From assembly GCA_029857975.1 (NCBI GenBank), contig JAOUFX010000057.1:1-9830 (forward strand): a stretch of DNA of 9,830 nt, in the 5' to 3' direction. Numbering within the stretch: the first letter of the stretch is position 1; each line of letters begins with the position of its first letter. The notes beneath the pieces are model-generated. The model was not told where the DNA came from, searched no databases, and saw only the letters and a program-made list of their open reading frames with translations. The position numbers and the translations under genes are program-made. The DNA is from Deltaproteobacteria bacterium. GTDB taxonomy: Bacteria > Desulfobacterota > SM23-61. Shown in pieces: positions 1,983 through 9,830 of this stretch.

Positions 1983-2019
1983 TTGACTTATTCGCATAAT
2001 CTGAATTATTATTATTATT
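1983..2019 (+). promoter_or_regulatory. Candidate promoter containing an (ATT)5 microsatellite
   Basis: TTGACT (1983-1988) is followed after 18 nt by TATTAT (2007-2012). That -10-like box lies within five tandem ATT units (2005-2019), which end just before the ribosome binding site of the antitoxin gene. Changes in repeat number would alter promoter or leader spacing. Confidence 0.4.
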
Positions 2020-2038
2020 GGAAAAAGGAGGAAATCTT

Positions 2039-2326
2039 ATGAAAGCTTTTGCTACTGTTCCCAGGCCCGCGAGGATAAGAATCCGGGGGCAGATTACCAT
2101 TCCCCAGGACATACGAGAAGAAATGAATCTGGATGCGCAAGCTACGATTAATCTCTTCCGGGTGGGGAAGGTTTTGTTGCTGACCCCCAAACGACTGGAG
2201 CGAGCTTCGTTGGCCAGGAAGGTGGAGCGGGAAATGAAGCGCGAAGGACTGACTTTGGAAGATCTGCTGGCGGGTCTCAAATCCCAACGGGAACGATATC
2301 TTGAAGAAGCCTTCTCAAAAGATTAA
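2039..2326 (+). CDS. Antitoxin, AbrB/SpoVT (MazE-like) family
   Basis: Predicted 95-residue antitoxin with an N-terminal swapped-hairpin AbrB/SpoVT DNA-binding domain. The segment 'RIRGQITIPQDIREEMNL' (residues 13-30) shows the family's basic-Gly-Q-hydrophobic-TIP-x-x-IR pattern, followed by a short beta region ('TINLFRVGKVLLLTPK'). The C-terminal half (from about residue 53) is a charged helix that would contact the toxin. Start chosen at ATG 2039, which has a strong GGAGG at 2027-2031; an upstream in-frame TTG at 2018 would place the ribosome binding site inside the gene. The downstream PIN gene overlaps its last 26 nt, the arrangement expected of a toxin-antitoxin pair. Confidence 0.87.
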   Translation: MKAFATVPRPARIRIRGQITIPQDIREEMNLDAQATINLFRVGKVLLLTPKRLERASLARKVEREMKREGLTLEDLLAGLKSQRERYLEEAFSKD

Positions 2327-2756
2327 GGTTTTCATCGACACCAGCGTTCTCATTGCGGGGGTCTCGTCGGTAACCGGAGCATCTGCCGCGGTTCTGGATC
2401 TCTGCGAGGCTGAAGTCCTCCAGATGGTGGTCAGTCGGCAAGTCCTGGTTGAAGCGGATCGTAATTTTTGCGCCAAACTCCCCAATTTAGTAATCCAATT
2501 TCGCCGGTTCATCCAGAATCTGGCTATTTTAATGGTCGAGGACCCGCCGACAAAAGCCGTGGAAAGGGCTGCCAATCTAATTCACCGCAAGGATGCCCCA
2601 ATCCTTGGCGCAGCCATGGAATCAGAAGCTGACTATTTGATTACGCTCGATAAAAAGCATTTCTTAAAGCAGAAGGCCACGCCCAATATCCCCATCGAAG
2701 TCTGCACGCCGGCTGATTTTCTAAGAATTTTTGAGCGTCTCTGGATCCAGGATTAG
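2301..2756 (+). CDS. PIN-domain toxin (PIN_3/VapC-like)
   Basis: Predicted 151-residue PIN-domain ribonuclease, partner of the AbrB-type antitoxin. Active-site acids: Asp13 ('FIDTSVLIAG'), Glu51 ('VLVEADRN'), Asp98 ('HRKDAPILGAAMES') and Asp117 ('DYLITLDKKHFL'). The 'KDAPILGAA...ADYLITLDKKHF' pattern is characteristic of the PIN_3-type branch, different from the VapC-like protein at 1264. No ATG or GTG occurs near the N-terminus; TTG at 2301 is the best available start and overlaps the antitoxin by 26 nt. The ribosome binding site is weak, so translation is probably coupled and low, which suits a toxin. Function is inferred from family and gene pairing. Confidence 0.87.
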   Translation: MKKPSQKIKVFIDTSVLIAGVSSVTGASAAVLDLCEAEVLQMVVSRQVLVEADRNFCAKLPNLVIQFRRFIQNLAILMVEDPPTKAVERAANLIHRKDAPILGAAMESEADYLITLDKKHFLKQKATPNIPIEVCTPADFLRIFERLWIQD

Positions 2757-3493: not shown

Positions 3494-5386
3494 ATGCCGA
3501 CAGGATACAACGGAAAAATCTTGCGGGTCAATTTGACCTCAGGGGCTATCCGTGAGGAAACCCCGGAGGAAATCGTCTACCGCACGTATATGGGCGGATC
3601 CGCCCTTTCTTCGTATTTTCTGCTGAAAGAGCAAAAGGCGGGCGTAGACCCCCTCGGCCCGGAGAACAAACTACTCTTTATGTCCAGCGTGATCTCCGGA
3701 GCGCCCCTAATGGGTCTAACCCGATACACCGTGGCGGCCCGCTCTCCCTTGACCGGGGCTTTCGGGGAAGCAGAAGCGGGAGGTTTTTTCGGGCCGGAGC
3801 TGAAGATGGCGGGGTTTGATGGAGTCATCATTGAAGGGCGGTCGGCCAAGCCGGTATATCTCTGGATCAAAGACGGCCGGGCGGAAATTCGGGATGCTTC
3901 CAAGATTTGGGGAAAAGACACCGGAGAGGCGGAAAAGCTGATCCGCGAGGAGCTCGGAGACAACCGGATTCGCGTGGCCCAGTGCGGCCCGGCCGGGGAG
4001 AAGCGGGTGCGCTATGCCTGCGTGGTCAACGAACTGAAGCATGCCAACGGCCGTACCGGCATGGGAGCCGTGATGGGGTCCAAGAACCTGCGGGCCATTG
4101 CCGCCCGGGGCACGCAGAGGGTTTCGCTGGCCAATCCGGAAAAAGTCGGGGAGATCGGGAAAAAAGTACTCGAACTCCTTTCCCAGTCCGTAATGGCCCA
4201 GAATTTGAAAAAGTTCGGGACGCCCATGTTCGTCATGCCCCTGCAGAACTCGGGGATCCTGCCGACGCGGAATTTTCAAAAGGGGCAATTCGAGGGGGCG
4301 GAAGCCATTTGCGGCGAAAAGATGACCGATACGATCCTGGTGAAATCGGAAGGTTGCTACGCTTGTGCGGTTCTATGCAAGCGGTCGGTCAAGGTGGAGG
4401 GCAAGTATAACGCCTCTCCCGAATACGGGGGGCCTGAATACGAGACGGTCGCCTCCCTGGGGTCCTACTGCGGGATTGATAACCTGGCGGCTATCGCCCA
4501 GGGGAATGAGATGTGCAACCGGTACGGTTTAGATACCATCTCCGTGGGTGTTTGCATCGCTTTTGCCATGGAATTGGTGGAAAAGGGAATCCTTACTGCA
4601 AAAGACACCGACGAGATTGACCTTCGCTTTGGGAATACGGATGCCATGTTGGCCATGATTGGGAAGATCGCCAGACGCGAAGGTTTCGGCGATGTGTTGG
4701 CGGAAGGCGTTCAGCGAGCGGCCCAGAAGATCGGGAAAGGGGCTGAAAAATTTGCCATGCACATCAAGGGCCAAGAACTGCCCATGCATGATCCGCGGGG
4801 AAAGCAGGGATTGTCCCTGAGTTATGCCACCTCCCCCACCGGGGCGGATCATATCGAAGCTCCCCATGATACTTCTTTCTTAACCGATGGCCCGGCGCTG
4901 AAAGCTGCCAAGCCGGCCGGTGTTATGGAGCCCGTCCCGGCGCTGGAGATGGGCCCGAGAAAGGTTCGGCAGTTTGTCCACACCCAGGCAATCTGGAACT
5001 CCTTCAACTCCCTGGGAGTCTGTAACTTTGCCGCGGCGCCTTATACGGCGATTCCTCTTGTTACGCTCGCCGAGGCGGTGGAGGCGATTACCGGCTGGAA
5101 TACCAGCCTTTACGAATTGATGGAGTTGGGGGAGCGGACGGTCACAATGGCGAGGATGTTCAACATCCGGGAAGGGTTGTCCAAAAAGGATGATTATCTC
5201 CCCGAGAGATTATATGAAACCTTGGAGGCCGGGACTCCCCGGGAGAAAAAGATTACCCGCGAAGATTTCGCCAATACCCTGAAACTTTATTATGGGGCCA
5301 TGGGCTGGGACCCGGAAACCGGAGTGCCGACCGAAGGGAGATTGAGCTTTTTAGGCTTGGATTGGCTGATTCCCAAAAAATAGAGA
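3494..5386 (+). CDS. aor: Aldehyde:ferredoxin oxidoreductase family protein
   Basis: Predicted 629-residue cytoplasmic tungsten/molybdenum bis-pterin oxidoreductase that oxidises aldehydes to carboxylic acids with ferredoxin, or runs in reverse. The length is typical for the family. The N-terminal domain (about 1-210) includes 'LTRYTVAARSPLTGAFGEAEAGGFFG' (pieces at residues 75-100) and 'NGRTGMGAVMGSKNLRAI' (185-202), a pterin-binding signature. The [4Fe-4S] ligands are Cys288, Cys291 and Cys295 (CYACAVLC) plus Cys510 in 'FNSLGVCNF'. 'LPMHDPRGKQGLSLSYATSP' (429-448) is the conserved segment near the active site. ATG 3494 has an excellent TAAGGAGG at 3479-3486. It stands alone: no ferredoxin, MoaD-like or pterin-synthesis gene adjoins, and a strong terminator follows. 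The aldehyde substrate cannot be deduced. Confidence 0.95.
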
Positions 5387-5403: not shown

Positions 5404-5452
5404 AAGGCCATAGAAGATTCATCCTCCCTGAATTTTCTATGGCCTTTTTCTT
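5404..5452 (+). terminator. Rho-independent terminator of the AOR gene
   Basis: A long stem, AAGGCCATAGAA plus GATTC (5404-5420), pairs with GAATT plus TTCTATGGCCTT (5430-5446) around a 9-nt loop. The pairing is continuous over 17 positions with one G-U, and a T-rich run TTTTTCTTTT begins at the 3' edge of the stem. It lies 18 nt after the AOR stop codon. Confidence 0.9.
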
Positions 5453-5703: not shown

Positions 5704-6411
5704 TTATGATTGGGGTGGCAACCAGAAAGGCCCCGTCTTTCCAATCGCCCGAAGTGTTATCGGCCTTTCCTTGCGGTACTCCTCCATGCGAGAAAAAAAA
5801 TCCAGATCGAGGCGCCGGCGAAATAGTTCTCCCGAAAATATCTTTACCAAATCATTCAGCGAAATAATCCCCTCTTCATTCCGGATATCGAACTGGGCCC
5901 ATTTCCGAATGTGTTCTTCCGACCGGAAGAAATTCATTGTGCTTCAGGAATAAGGAAGGTTTTCGTACCATTTCCACATGGGAACAGCCACATATCCCAT
6001 CACCCCTTCAGGCTCGATGCGGAGGAGAATACCATCCTTTATATCCACCCGGATCGGCAACCCACAATCTAAACACGGCGTATCGATCCGAACGGTCTTC
6101 CCTGGAAAAAGCCAGCAAACTGCCAGCGACTCAAACGCTCACTGGCCAAACCACTTCTGTTGACCATCAATCGTCAGCCGATACTGAGTAGGAAGGTTAT
6201 TGAAGGGGGCAAAGGAGACGATATAATCAGACCCCGGAAATACCCAGGCGGGCATCCTCCCGCTAAGGAGCTCATGGAGAGTCTTGCGACCCTCTTCCGG
6301 AATAACTCCTAGCTCGGCAGCGATCTCCGTATAGTGCGGCGCCTGCCCCGTATCCATCATCCGCCGTAAAATGAAATGAAAGGTTCGATCAAGAATAGTG
6401 GGTTCATTCAT
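5704..6411 (-). CDS. MerB-like organomercurial lyase family selenoprotein with two in-frame UGA (Sec) codons
   Basis: One continuous 235-residue frame from ATG (6411-6409) to TAA (5706-5704), interrupted only by two TGA codons: residue 91 (6139-6141) and residue 156 (5944-5946). Residues 6-50 resemble the N-terminal winged-helix part of MerB. Then come 'NNLPTQYRLTIDGQQKWFGQ', U91, 'AFESLAVCWLFPG', 'DTPCLDCGLPI', 'RIEPEGVMGYVAVPMWKWYE', 'NLPYS', U156, 'STMNFFRSEEHIRKW' and 'EEGIISLNDLVKIFSGELF'. Against classical MerB, WCALD aligns with Q-U-AFE (Cys96 to U91, Asp99 to Glu94), HCAATG with PCLDCG, and SFCCHVHFFAS with YS-U-STMNFFRS (Cys159 to U156). Spacing is 65 residues versus 63. MerB cleaves C-Hg bonds with exactly these residues. 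Each TGA has a SECIS-like hairpin at the right distance. AAAGGAGG (6418-6425) lies 6 nt before the ATG. The selenocysteine reading is inference from these coincidences; a decayed gene would not place its stops only there. The true substrate is unproven. Confidence 0.88.
5914..5931 (-). promoter_or_regulatory. SECIS-like hairpin for UGA 2 (residue 156)
   Basis: In the mRNA sense the sequence is TTCTTCC-GGTC-GGAAGAA: a perfect 7-bp stem capped by a GGUC tetraloop. It begins 13 nt after UGA 5944-5946, with the loop 19-22 nt after it. From memory of the E. coli fdhF SECIS, the apical GGUC loop and its distance from UGA are nearly the same; the loop guanines and uracil are what SelB recognises. 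Confidence 0.85.
6111..6127 (-). promoter_or_regulatory. SECIS-like hairpin for UGA 1 (residue 91)
   Basis: In the mRNA sense GCTGGCA-GTT-TGCTGGC forms a 7-bp stem with two G-U pairs and a GUU loop whose first base is G. The loop lies 19-21 nt after UGA 6139-6141, the spacing known for E. coli fdhF. Weaker than the second hairpin, because of the G-U pairs and the minimal loop, but correctly placed. Confidence 0.65.
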
Positions 6412-6417
6412 GAAAAG

Positions 6418-6425
6418 CCTCCTTT
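6418..6425 (-). promoter_or_regulatory. Ribosome binding site of the MerB-like gene
   Basis: AAAGGAGG in the - strand sense, 6 nt before ATG 6411. It fixes the start codon and shows that the frame is actively translated from this point. Confidence 0.8.
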
Positions 6426-6831: not shown

Positions 6832-8316
6832 TCATCCGGACTGCCCCCTGCTCAGGGACTCATAGAGAAGACGCATGCGCGCGCGAAGGCCCCGGTAGAG
6901 CTCCACGCTGCGCGGATTAGGCTCCAGGCGCCTCCTCACCGGCGGGCACACGGACCGGAAAGCTGCGGAATGATCGGGATAAACGCCAAGACTGACACAT
7001 GCGCTCATCAGTGCTCCGAGGGTGGTCGCCTCGCTGTTCTCGAAGCAGTTGACCGGACGGCCAAAGCAATCGGCCTGTATCTGGTTGAAAAGATCGAACC
7101 GGGTCAGCCCCCCGGCGACTCCGATCTCTCTGATTCCGCCTACGAGCGAATCGATGGCCTCCAGGCCCTCGCTCATCTCGATCGCGACCCCCTCGAGGAT
7201 CGAGCGCGCGATATCGCCGCGGGTGCTCTCGAGGCTCACCCCGAAGAACACCCCCCGAGAGCGGGGGTTCCAGTACGGGGAAGCCGATCCCTTGAAATGC
7301 GGGAGCGTCAGGACCCCCCGCGCCCCAATCGGAGAGGCCTCGACCCCTGCGTTCATCTCCTCCACTGTGGAATCCCGGAAAAGCTGCTCCTTCGCCCACG
7401 AGTAGGCAGCCCCGCTGACGAGCACGCCAGCCTCCACTATCCACGTGCCCGGCACAGCCCCGCAGCTGCAGAGCGTGCGCATCCAGGGATCGAATGCCGG
7501 CCGGTCCGCGTACGCGACCAGGAAGGACCCGGTGCCAGTATTCGCGGCGGCCGACCCCGGCGAGAGCACGTTCAGGGCGAGGGCCGCGCTCTGCTGATCC
7601 CCGCCGGAAATGATGACCGGAACCCCGGAGGGCAGGCGGCAGGCGGCGGCCGCCCCGACATCGAGCCCTCCCCCAACGCTTCCCGGCGCCACGATGCGCG
7701 GCAGCAAGTCCTCGGTCACCCCCACCGCGGCGACTAAGTCCGCGTCCCAGCGCAGGGAGGCAACATCCATGAGCATCGTGCGGCACGCCTGGGTCGCGTC
7801 GGTCACGTACTGCTCGGTTAGGAGCCACACGATCCAGTCCTGGACGCCGATCAGTTTGGCGGACCGGGAGAAGATCTCGGGCCGGTTCTTCCGCAGCCAG
7901 AGCATCTTCGGCGCCGAGAAGTAGGGGTCGGCGCGGAGGCCGGTCCGCTGATATATCCCCTCGACCGTGAAGGAAGAGGCGAGTGCGGCGCTCTCCCCGA
8001 CGCTGCGCTTGTCGTGCCACATGATGGCGCGGCACAGCGGCTGCCCGTCCCTGCCCACGGGGATCACAGAGGCGCGCTGCGAAGCAACAGACAGCGCAAG
8101 GACGCCGCACTCCGCCGAGCGCGCGTATCCGGCCGCCTCGGCGAGGGTCTCGAAAAGGGCGGTCCGCCATGTCAGCGCGTCCTGCTCCACCGCGTCCCCC
8201 TCGAGGAACAGCGGGGAGCATGCGCGCGACGAGGAGTATCGCATCGTTCCGTCAAGGCCCACGACGCTCGAGCGCAGGCTCGAGGTGCCGACGTCGATCA
8301 CGATGATGCTGTTCAA
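6832..8316 (-). CDS. FGGY-family carbohydrate kinase
   Basis: Predicted 494-residue ATP-dependent sugar or polyol kinase, full length for the FGGY family (xylulokinase, gluconokinase, LsrK and relatives). N-terminal phosphate-binding segment 'VIDVGTSSLRSSVVGLDG' (residues 6-23); substrate-domain 'MWHDKRS' (99-105); catalytic base Asp240 in 'IISGGDQQSAALALN'; 'NTGTGSFLV' (259-267); the adenosine region 'GVAGGLTRFDLFNQIQADCF' (399-418) then GRPV; and 'EATTLGALMSA' (429-439). The open frame runs up to 8547, but those codons overlap the aldolase gene and are not kinase-like. I take TTG 8316, directly before the first beta strand and 13 nt after the aldolase stop, with GTAGGA upstream at 8333-8328. 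Third and last visible gene of the operon. It probably phosphorylates a ketose later cleaved by the neighbouring aldolase; the substrate is unknown. Confidence 0.9.
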   Translation of the reverse strand: MNSIIVIDVGTSSLRSSVVGLDGTMRYSSSRACSPLFLEGDAVEQDALTWRTALFETLAEAAGYARSAECGVLALSVASQRASVIPVGRDGQPLCRAIMWHDKRSVGESAALASSFTVEGIYQRTGLRADPYFSAPKMLWLRKNRPEIFSRSAKLIGVQDWIVWLLTEQYVTDATQACRTMLMDVASLRWDADLVAAVGVTEDLLPRIVAPGSVGGGLDVGAAAACRLPSGVPVIISGGDQQSAALALNVLSPGSAAANTGTGSFLVAYADRPAFDPWMRTLCSCGAVPGTWIVEAGVLVSGAAYSWAKEQLFRDSTVEEMNAGVEASPIGARGVLTLPHFKGSASPYWNPRSRGVFFGVSLESTRGDIARSILEGVAIEMSEGLEAIDSLVGGIREIGVAGGLTRFDLFNQIQADCFGRPVNCFENSEATTLGALMSACVSLGVYPDHSAAFRSVCPPVRRRLEPNPRSVELYRGLRARMRLLYESLSRGQSG

Positions 8317-8329
8317 GGCAGCCGTTTTC

Positions 8330-9160
8330 CTACCCCTTGAAGATCCCGATGTATTTCCGCGCCACCCGCGTGACGAGGTCAACCGCTTCGAGGGAAAGCT
8401 TCGAGTAATGGAAGTCCTTCCCGGAGGCGAGCATGGCGCGGAACCGATCGACGACGAGCGTCGATATTTCCGTGTTGACGTTGATCTTGCAGATGCCGTT
8501 TTGGATGCATTCGCGCAGGACGTCCTCCGGCGTGCCCGACCCGCCATGCAGGACGAGCGGTACGGACACCAGGCGCCGGATCGCCTTCAGGGTGCCGACG
8601 TCGATCTTCGGCTCGCCCTTGTACAGGCCGTGCACGGTCCCGATGGAGACTGCGAGGGCATCGACCCCGCTGGCCTCCACAAGCTCGCGCGCCTGCGCCG
8701 GATCCGTGTAGATCTGCTCCGCGGCTTCCTCGTTGGAGCGGTCTCCCAGGGCGATCGCCCCGAGCTCCGCCTCCACCGACACCCCCGCCGCGTGCGCGAA
8801 GCGCACGACGTCCCTGCTCGCGGCTACGTTCTGCGCGAACGGCAGCGATGAGCCGTCGAACATAACCGAGGTGAAGCCGGCCCTGATCGCCTGCACGATG
8901 TGGTCGACCGACTTGCAGTGGTCGAGGTGCAAGGCGATCGGCGTGGAGACCTCGCGCGAGAGCCTCTCCGCGACGAGGGCGACCGACTCGAAGTCCATGT
9001 TCTCCAGGTAGCGCTCGCCGAAGGCCACGATGACCGGGACCTTCTCCTCCTGCGCCGCCTTCACGACCCCGAAGATGGTCTCGTAGTTGTACACATTGAA
9101 GGCGCCGACCGCGTACGCGCCCTTCTGCGCCTCGTCGAGAAGCTCTCTCATGGGACGCAT
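8330..9160 (-). CDS. Class II ketose-bisphosphate aldolase (GatY/KbaY/Fba type)
   Basis: Predicted 276-residue zinc aldolase that cleaves a ketose (bis)phosphate into dihydroxyacetone phosphate and an aldehyde. Motifs in order: 'GAFNVYNYETI' near residue 20; 'IALHLDHCKS' with catalytic Asp80 and zinc ligand His81; 'SVMFDGSSLP'; 'VEAELGAI'; 'IGTVHGLYKGEP' with zinc ligand His177; 'LVLHGGSGTP' with zinc ligand His205; and 'KINVNTE' for phosphate binding. The length fits the tagatose/fructose-bisphosphate group. ATG 9160 overlaps the upstream stop as TGATG; GTG 9163 is an alternative start giving one more residue. A GGGGG-containing site lies at about 9171-9175. Cotranscribed between a dehydrogenase and an FGGY kinase, which points to a dedicated sugar catabolic route rather than central glycolysis. 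Confidence 0.92.
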   Translation of the reverse strand: MRPMRELLDEAQKGAYAVGAFNVYNYETIFGVVKAAQEEKVPVIVAFGERYLENMDFESVALVAERLSREVSTPIALHLDHCKSVDHIVQAIRAGFTSVMFDGSSLPFAQNVAASRDVVRFAHAAGVSVEAELGAIALGDRSNEEAAEQIYTDPAQARELVEASGVDALAVSIGTVHGLYKGEPKIDVGTLKAIRRLVSVPLVLHGGSGTPEDVLRECIQNGICKINVNTEISTLVVDRFRAMLASGKDFHYSKLSLEAVDLVTRVARKYIGIFKG

Positions 9161-9830
9161 CACGGCTTAACCCCCTTCAGCCACGCAGCGAACGAGGGAT
9201 CGGAAAGCACCCCGGGGTTCTTGATGAACCTGGGCTTGTCCCCGTCGAAGAACTTCTTGATGTCCTCCATCAGCAGTCCGGGCGAGCCGGAGAGAGCCTC
9301 CTTGGTCGTGCCGGCGATGTGGGTGGTGAGGGTTACGTTGTCCAGGTCGAGGAACTCGTTGCCCTGCTCAAGGGGCTCGTTCTCGAACACGTCGAGGGCC
9401 GCTCCCGCGATCTTGCGGCCGCGAAGCGCGGCAAGCAGTGCCTTCTGGTCGATGAGCCCTGCGCGCGCCGTGTTGATGATGTAGGCCGTCGGCTTCATGA
9501 GCCCCAGCTCCCGCGCTCCCACCATGCCCTTGTTCTCCGCGCCCAGCCGGGCATGAAGCGTGATGAAATCGGCGTTCTGAAAAAGCGCGTCCTTTTCCAC
9601 CAGGCGCACGCCGCACTCGGACTCCACGGACTTGTCAACGAACGGGTCGTGGACGAGGATCTCGACGTTGAAGCCGGAGAGCTTCCTTGCGACCAGCCGC
9701 CCGATATAGCCGAAGCCGACGATGCCGACCTTCTTCTCCTTCAGCTGAGGAACCCATTCTGAGTTGGAGAACTCCTTGCGCCACTTTCCGTTCTTGATCG
9801 CGAGGTGGGCCCGCGCGATGTTCCTGCTCT
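9160..9830 (-). CDS. D-2-hydroxyacid dehydrogenase (phosphoglycerate dehydrogenase-like), 5' end outside window
   Basis: C-terminal 222 residues of an NAD-dependent D-2-hydroxyacid dehydrogenase; the frame is open to the right edge, so the true start lies outside. Visible: 'KVGIVGFGYIGRLVARKLSG', the Rossmann dinucleotide motif GxGxxG; 'VHDPF', an acidic residue after the second strand that favours NAD; 'FITLHARL'; 'IINTARAGLID' with the substrate-binding/catalytic Arg; 'ALDVFENEPL' with the catalytic Glu; and 'TTHIAGTTKEA' with the catalytic His. The codons right of 9627 continue the same protein, so no start at 9627 should be used. Its TGA overlaps the aldolase ATG. It would reduce a 2-keto acid or oxidise a 2-hydroxy acid; similarity to SerA is at family level, and the operon suggests sugar-acid metabolism instead of serine synthesis. 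Confidence 0.92.
   Translation of the reverse strand, partial: SRNIARAHLAIKNGKWRKEFSNSEWVPQLKEKKVGIVGFGYIGRLVARKLSGFNVEILVHDPFVDKSVESECGVRLVEKDALFQNADFITLHARLGAENKGMVGARELGLMKPTAYIINTARAGLIDQKALLAALRGRKIAGAALDVFENEPLEQGNEFLDLDNVTLTTHIAGTTKEALSGSPGLLMEDIKKFFDGDKPRFIKNPGVLSDPSFAAWLKGVKP

Follow-up and report, generated by a model that had tools for sequence, protein, structure and literature searches.

A MerB-like gene with two in-frame TGA codons, predicted to encode a di-selenocysteine protein, in a deltaproteobacterial contig

The locus and its reading frame

The window, the whole 9,830-nucleotide stretch of DNA analysed here, carries a MerB-like gene on the minus strand together with an oxidoreductase gene, a run of sugar-related genes and two toxin-antitoxin-like pairs:

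815-1686 and 2018-2756, plus strand: toxin-antitoxin-like pairs, a Phd/YefM-like antitoxin with a PIN protein and an AbrB/MazE-like protein with a PIN protein (profile matches)
3494-5383, plus strand: aldehyde:ferredoxin oxidoreductase homologue, convergent with the MerB-like gene and about 320 bp from it (Pfam)
5404-5446: 18-bp terminator-like hairpin by the aldehyde:ferredoxin oxidoreductase gene
5704..6411, minus strand: MerB-like gene, putatively double-selenocysteine, ATG to TAA, with TGA at codons 91 and 156 (translation, Pfam, phmmer, family alignment)
5944..5946, minus strand: TGA of residue 156, putative second selenocysteine (Sec) codon, aligned with MerB Cys159 (translation, phmmer)
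6064..6075, minus strand: Cys113-x-x-Cys116 (CLDC), with Cys113 aligned with MerB Cys117 (phmmer, family alignment)
6130..6132, minus strand: Glu94 codon, at the place of the MerB catalytic Asp99 (phmmer alignment)
6139..6141, minus strand: TGA of residue 91, putative first Sec codon, aligned with MerB Cys96 (translation, phmmer)
6418..6425, minus strand: Shine-Dalgarno-like run AAAGGAGG, 6 nt before the ATG (read from the sequence)
6832-9828, minus strand: FGGY sugar kinase, class II aldolase and a third gene in one run (Pfam, ORFs)

The sugar-kinase gene is on the same strand as the MerB-like gene, about 420 bp upstream, and the third gene of its run is presumably a D-hydroxyacid dehydrogenase, which its translation resembles. 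With TGA read as U, positions 5704-6411 translate to 235 residues with U91 and U156, a terminal TAA and no further stops, bearing out a first-pass annotation that had described a single frame broken only by two TGA codons and running to a TAA. Translation table 11 splits this 235-codon frame into a 90-residue and a 77-residue ORF, as that annotation expected of gene-calling pipelines, but the expectation fails for the window's own database entry (P0002), which is full-length and has Trp at both TGAs. Residue 155 of the window protein is Ser.

Correspondence with the MerB fold and catalytic site

The Pfam MerB profile (PF03243) matches residues 72-189, a span that includes both TGAs, and scores 74.1 bits (cut-off 27). 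In phmmer alignments with solved MerB structures, residues 91, 113 and 156 correspond to Cys96, Cys117 and Cys159, and the earlier placement of the two TGAs proved correct (U91-C96, U156-C159). The top structural matches of the window protein are MerB chains, while LexA and other winged-helix chains in the same comparison have far lower Z scores (4.7 or less). A further substitution, absent from the first-pass annotation, is Glu94 at the position of the catalytic Asp99; in the 43-gene family described below, column 94 is E in 42 genes and D in one.

Classical MerB (PF03243; 3f0o, 3f2f, 5c17) has Cys96, Cys159 and Asp99 where the window protein has predicted Sec, predicted Sec and Glu, and the window protein differs further in its CxxC at 113-116, its identity of about 20% and the lack of recognised mer genes nearby. 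A survey of mer genes screens for Cys96, Asp99, Cys117 and Cys159 and names 99Ser and 117alt variants; within the portion of its text available here, the string "selen" occurs only in the reference list (PMC8261052). Against that strict signature, the window protein has the PF03243 match and Cys117 (as Cys113), while Cys96 and Cys159 are replaced by TGA, read as Sec, and Asp99 by Glu94 (PMC8261052). It also scores below the cut-offs of the NCBIfam MerB models (NF009710, 41.6 of 193 bits; NF033555, 33.2 of 200).

SaoL (NF040728) is a MerB-like organometallic lyase of the SAO system, entered in Table 1 of a 2026 selenoprotein inventory in a row citing Haft and Gwadz 2023, and no other row of that table is MerB-like; its one Sec lies in a CU motif (PMC13188914). 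Both SaoL and the window protein are MerB-like and contain, or are predicted to contain, Sec; SaoL has Cys at column 91 and a Cys just before its single Sec, whereas the window protein has two predicted Sec residues and Ser155. The two genomes with a protein over the SaoL cut-off (G130, locus L105; G255, locus L104) show Cys at column 91 and a CU whose U falls on column 156. Identity of the window protein with SaoL was rejected on its score (34.9 bits against a cut-off of 140), its two TGAs and its lack of a CU motif. Judged from these profile and alignment results, the window protein is MerB-like by fold and site, yet outside the strict MerB and SaoL definitions.

Two other proteins in Table 1 of the inventory, the double-Sec UxxU protein NF041115 and MbdU (NF045648), likewise have two Sec residues and metal-related names and are not MerB (PMC13188914). 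The first-pass annotation knew of no described MerB with two Sec residues, and none was found in that table, in literature searches or among the NCBIfam models.

A family sharing the two TGA columns

A database protein search with the window protein returned 248 homologues. In a sample of 395 genomes from the phylum there were 26 places in 22 genomes (hereafter carriers) with at least 200 residues covered at 41-80% identity, and all 26 have exactly two TGAs; a Pfam MerB search of the same 22 carriers (E 1e-6 or better) gave 31 places, 30 of them with exactly two TGAs. A scan of contigs from named genomes gave 23 loci, 22 of which contain both columns, with TGA at column 156 in all 22 and, at column 91, TGA in 20 and Cys in two. 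These loci are labelled mostly as Deltaproteobacteria and Desulfobacterales and as Dehalococcoidia or SAR202-type Chloroflexi; a single bin carries the label Actinomycetes. The closest relative, from Deltaproteobacteria bacterium SM23_61 (L036), is 81% identical over 217 columns.

The non-duplicate set comprises 43 genes including that of the window. It omits L001 and L005 (the same genes as L036 and L042), the frame-broken L076 and L077, L058, which lacks its N-terminus, and four paralogues, from G083 (one), G089 (two) and G144 (one). All 43 genes have TGA at column 156; at column 91, 41 have TGA and two (L048, L053) have TGC. None has another internal TGA, TAA or TAG. A sequencing error at either TGA is ruled out by the recurrence of both in many separately assembled genomes, and the earlier judgement that two such codons were unlikely to have arisen by chance is upheld by the Pfam score, the homologues and the 43 genes with the same columns.

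The nearest sampled genome (G001), with 27% of sampled 31-mers in common with the window, has no match to the MerB-like protein. In G002, G005, G374 and G387, the high-identity partial matches come from copies that are broken or cut; other matches are distant. Within the nearest genus or family, homology is lost after about residue 82 in G002 (L116), and G005 (L117) retains only fragments of the gene. There was no match to the MerB-like gene among plasmid records (E 1e-10) or phage records (E 1e-5), and five pattern matches in viral contigs included no relative, one of the two patterns used there having required Cys at column 91.

Selection on all three segments

The standard code places two stops in frame, and broken or partial copies occur in G002 and G005 (of the same family), G374 and G387, so the gene could be read as a decaying MerB gene with two chance nonsense mutations. 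The recurrence of the two TGA columns across 43 genes that are free of other internal stops argues against such decay, as does purifying selection, which persists 3' of each TGA. Across 903 gene pairs, median pN/pS was 0.36 before the first TGA, 0.41 between the two and 0.53 after the second, with values below 1 in 100%, 100% and 99.7% of pairs, respectively. Between the window gene and L036, pN and pS were 0.11 and 0.51 before, 0.05 and 0.34 between and 0.14 and 0.39 after the TGAs. In the very close pair L054/L055, dN/dS in the middle segment was 0.93, on few changes. Purifying selection in all three segments is a strong argument against either a pseudogene or a truncated product as the selected form, and the pseudogene reading, contradicted by both the 43-gene TGA pattern and the selection, was dropped as extremely improbable.

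A related reading would have the TGAs act mainly as stops, with a 90-residue protein as the main product and rare, selenium-dependent read-through; a selenium-dependent switch is conceivable for any UGA-coded selenoprotein. Here, however, all three segments are under selection and the 90-residue piece would be without most of the MerB domain, whose Pfam match begins only at residue 72. The selection on all three segments led to this reading, too, being dropped as very unlikely.

Selenocysteine rather than tryptophan

Among the matches listed (120 of the 248, from which the window's own P0002 was left out to give 119 assessed homologues), 70 have C at column 91, 48 have W and one has S. Column 156 is missing from 70 of the same 119, most of which finish just short of it, as a stop codon there would predict, to judge from the protein entries alone. 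P0002 has W at both TGAs, and the other W entries are for that reason taken to be TGA read as Trp as well. Public predictions often place Trp at both catalytic positions; the TGA-as-Trp origin is direct for P0002 and deduced for the others.

The W entries at column 91, with P0002 as an example of how they arise, are what would be expected if the host reassigned TGA to tryptophan, as some public gene predictions assume. Where the DNA was seen, though, the alternative to TGA is a Cys codon and never TGG, and column 91 in the listed homologues is otherwise C or, once, S. Further, TGG is used 285 times elsewhere in the 43-gene set, and 12 of the 43 genes end at TGA (the first stop after residue 200, taken as the ordinary end; L056 is left out of this count, as a masked run precedes its end). 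Carriers also have selA and selB (see below). Reassignment, contradicted by the Cys codons, the TGG usage and the terminal TGAs, was dropped as hardly credible, and the residue at both TGAs is most likely selenocysteine.

Homologues with Cys or TGA at the same two columns, which the first-pass annotation had proposed as support, were found in the database, contig and distant sets. Among the matches listed, P0032 and P0044 have Cys at both columns, and P0044 is nested inside the double-TGA clade (support 100/93). Distant homologues (24-36% identical) include Cys/Cys forms (L078-L080, L082, L109-L112, L114 and L115, some of them the same gene twice), forms with Cys at column 91 and TGA at column 156 (L103, L104, L105, L108) and forms with TGA at both (L106, L107), while L113 has Cys at column 91 and is unaligned at column 156. 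The family accordingly shows the pattern used to recognise bacterial selenoproteins, an in-frame TGA that is conserved and has Cys in its place in some homologues. A 59-row tree requires seven changes among the three Sec/Cys labels, against a minimum of two, so that Sec and Cys were probably exchanged repeatedly; a number of its deep branches are long, however, and join at uncertain points.

SECIS-like hairpins within the coding sequence

Downstream of each TGA, the window contains a candidate SECIS-like hairpin:

6111..6127, minus strand: SECIS-like hairpin after TGA91, GCUGGC-AGUUU-GCUGGC, loop at +20 from the U of the UGA (hairpin scan, pairing)
5914..5931, minus strand: SECIS-like hairpin after TGA156, UUCUUCC-GGUC-GGAAGAA, loop starting at +22 (hairpin scan, pairing)

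In the hairpin after TGA156, the best-scoring loop starts at +22 in 42 of the 43 genes (one base earlier in L048), and the loop reads GGUC in 42 and GAUC in one. In its seven-pair stem, 99.7% of cells are standard pairs, compared with 47-66% for slid versions, and 16 cells are changed on both sides. The same hairpin was found in all six genes examined from a divergent double-TGA MerB-like subfamily (L106, L107, L125, L155, L157, L158), whose addition raises the count of doubly changed cells to 19. Among these are three genes with C-G to U-A beside the loop, a change that on its 3' side turns a Ser codon from TCG to TCA. This subfamily has in common with the window family the two TGA columns and, behind the second of them, the hairpin with its GGUC loop; it differs in being far in sequence and in its first-TGA hairpin (GCCCUU-CGUGC-AAGGGC, read by eye).

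After TGA91, the loop at +20 is mostly GGUCU, AGUUU or AGUCU, and 96.9% of stem cells pair (11-61% when slid), with no cell changed on both sides; 31 of the 43 genes have their best-scoring hairpin at +20 and the other 12 have it at a different position. With the stem enforced, the two window hairpins have energies of -8.6 and -9.6 kcal/mol, in agreement with the criterion given in the legend to Fig. 2 of the inventory (PMC13188914). Free folding of the window sequence favours other structures over the TGA91 hairpin, which is not its free-energy minimum, and when 50 and 60 nt after each TGA of the window alone were folded freely, shuffled sequences were not clearly beaten (z 0.39, -0.98, 0.77 and 0.19). 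A search of the window against Rfam gave three matches, all below gathering scores.

When every codon was scored as if it were the UGA, residues 155-157 and 89-92 took ranks 1-7 of 210 columns, with column 156 third and column 91 fourth, although the margin in mean energy is modest (-11.4 to -10.5 kcal/mol for ranks 1-7, -9.7 for rank 8). Codon choice is constrained in the same places. Comparing synonymous entropy with expectation over 71 conserved degenerate columns, nine of the ten lowest columns fall in 94-98 and 162-165, with Ser164 encoded by TCG in 43 of 43 genes and Arg163 by CGG in 42. This single-column ranking is clearer than whole-block Mann-Whitney tests, which were modest (p 0.007 for 92-102; p 0.07 for 157-168). 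Taken over the family, it is strongly supported that each UGA has its own SECIS-like hairpin inside the coding sequence.

Selenocysteine machinery in carriers and relatives

Over cut-off, selA is present in 22 of 22 carriers, selB in 21 and tRNA-Sec in 15; the carrier without selB (G017) is a genome 85% complete, and the tRNA-Sec search gave no match in the other seven carriers. In the nearest genus (G001-G004), selA and tRNA-Sec were found in four of four genomes and selB over cut-off in three. As selB occurs in 353 of the 395 sampled genomes, the machinery in carriers is a consistency check with little power to discriminate. The window's own genome is presumed to hold the Sec genes found in these relatives. 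One contig of G001 (C222, 3118-5189) has a second tRNA-Sec just before a second selB, with another selB and tRNA-Sec elsewhere in the genome.

Genomic context and co-occurrence with hgcA

There was no conserved operon among 42 loci including the window (L036 and L100 being the same genome), as no neighbour cluster occurred in more than four loci once gene-piece clusters (by size and place) and clusters of closely related SAR202-type loci were set aside. The largest, cluster 11, includes the short-chain dehydrogenase of L090. Local synteny is seen among the SAR202-type relatives, and otherwise no neighbour cluster is widely common. Within 300 bp on the same strand there were 32 neighbours, and a Pfam scan of 20 of them placed 19 in various unrelated families (among them a DUF169 protein, a C_GCAxxG_C_C protein, short-chain dehydrogenases, an amidase and an ETF subunit) and one in none, with no mer theme among the 20. 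A DUF169 protein and a C_GCAxxG_C_C putative redox protein lie directly downstream of the gene in two carriers (L083, 8795-9592; L085, 8718-9344). MerA was found over cut-off in two of 22 carriers; sub-cut-off MerA matches are given little weight, as they also occur in 13 of 14 control genomes.

Genomes with hgcA (NF040863, E 1e-50 or better) made up 118 of the 395, with a match in 18 of 22 carriers and in 100 of 373 others (Fisher p 3e-7), genomes with broken copies being counted as non-carriers. The four carriers with no hgcA match are G017, G194, G196 and G237. At the curated cut-off, the counts were 16 of 22 and 97 of 373 (p 1e-5). When hgcA labels were permuted inside each of the 11 carrier-containing families, 12.4 joint cases were expected (p 0.0006); of the 22 genomes lacking a family label in the selB listing, only G286 entered this stratified test, and those left out have no hgcA match. 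The association points to mercury as the substrate, while being a correlation within one phylum of which shared habitat may be the cause. With no conserved operon and so few carriers of MerA, mercury is therefore a presumed substrate.

Proposed function and its alternatives

Reading the gene as one 235-residue MerB-fold protein, in which UGA 91 and UGA 156 are each decoded as Sec through their own hairpin, is strongly supported by the family comparisons. The fuller explanation, a di-Sec MerB-fold protein with an organometal-breaking role in anaerobes, is given a probability of about 0.8. By analogy with MerB, R-Hg(+) would be taken up by Sec156 and Sec91, Glu94 would assist protonation of the carbon so that R-H departs, and Hg(II) would stay bound by both selenols, to be removed in the end by a small thiol, selenol or sulfide. 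The most likely role would be breaking methylmercury or another organometal inside anaerobes that often bear hgcA and mostly lack MerA. The parts of this scheme that we infer are the decoding of UGA as Sec in this host, the binding of an organometal by two selenolates, the protonating role of Glu94 and which metal is involved.

Mercury held by two selenols should, on chemical grounds, be very stable. Slow product release would consequently be a weakness of a lyase with such a site, and a sink or an Hg-removing partner has to be considered; the same chemistry might make the lyase a tight mercury binder tuned to low-level organomercury, as the first-pass annotation proposed. A protein that only bound or sequestered Hg(II), organomercury or some other soft metal through its two selenols would fit the very tight binding expected of such a site, the possibly slow release, the scarcity of MerA in carriers and the replacement of Asp99 by Glu. 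Such a protein would have no obvious need for the Glu or Asp found at column 94 in 43 of 43 genes, and the MerB fold and three catalytic positions are retained, which makes a sink in place of a lyase unlikely.

The lyase might instead act on organotin, organoarsenic, organoselenium or organotellurium compounds. SaoL, a one-Sec relative of MerB, belongs to a system named only as organometallic (PMC13188914), and the scanned neighbours offer no mer theme; the hgcA association, as a correlation only, favours methylmercury, and a different substrate is considered rather unlikely.

If the di-Sec lyase reading holds, a broader proposal follows tentatively, at somewhat less than even odds: mercury-methylating anaerobes would often have a di-Sec lyase of their own, such that one cell both makes (through HgcAB) and breaks methylmercury, mostly without MerA, and surveys that look for uninterrupted frames with Cys96, Asp99 and Cys159 would miss the demethylating half. 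The splitting of the frame under table 11 and the Cys/Asp screening in the mer survey (PMC8261052) suggest that a potential methylmercury sink is probably uncounted, one that would span sediment-type Deltaproteobacteria and SAR202-type bacteria. A di-selenol site on a MerB scaffold would also be a natural test of the part selenium plays in metal-carbon cleavage, and the existence of Cys/Cys, Cys/Sec and Sec/Sec forms of one fold makes direct comparison possible. Since the gene and hgcA often occur together, the net methylation of one cell is a question that can be tested directly.

As a separate observation on gene arrangement, a single contig of genome G319 (C126) holds hgcA (8516-9502), selA (20893-22269) and tRNA-Sec (25950-26039).
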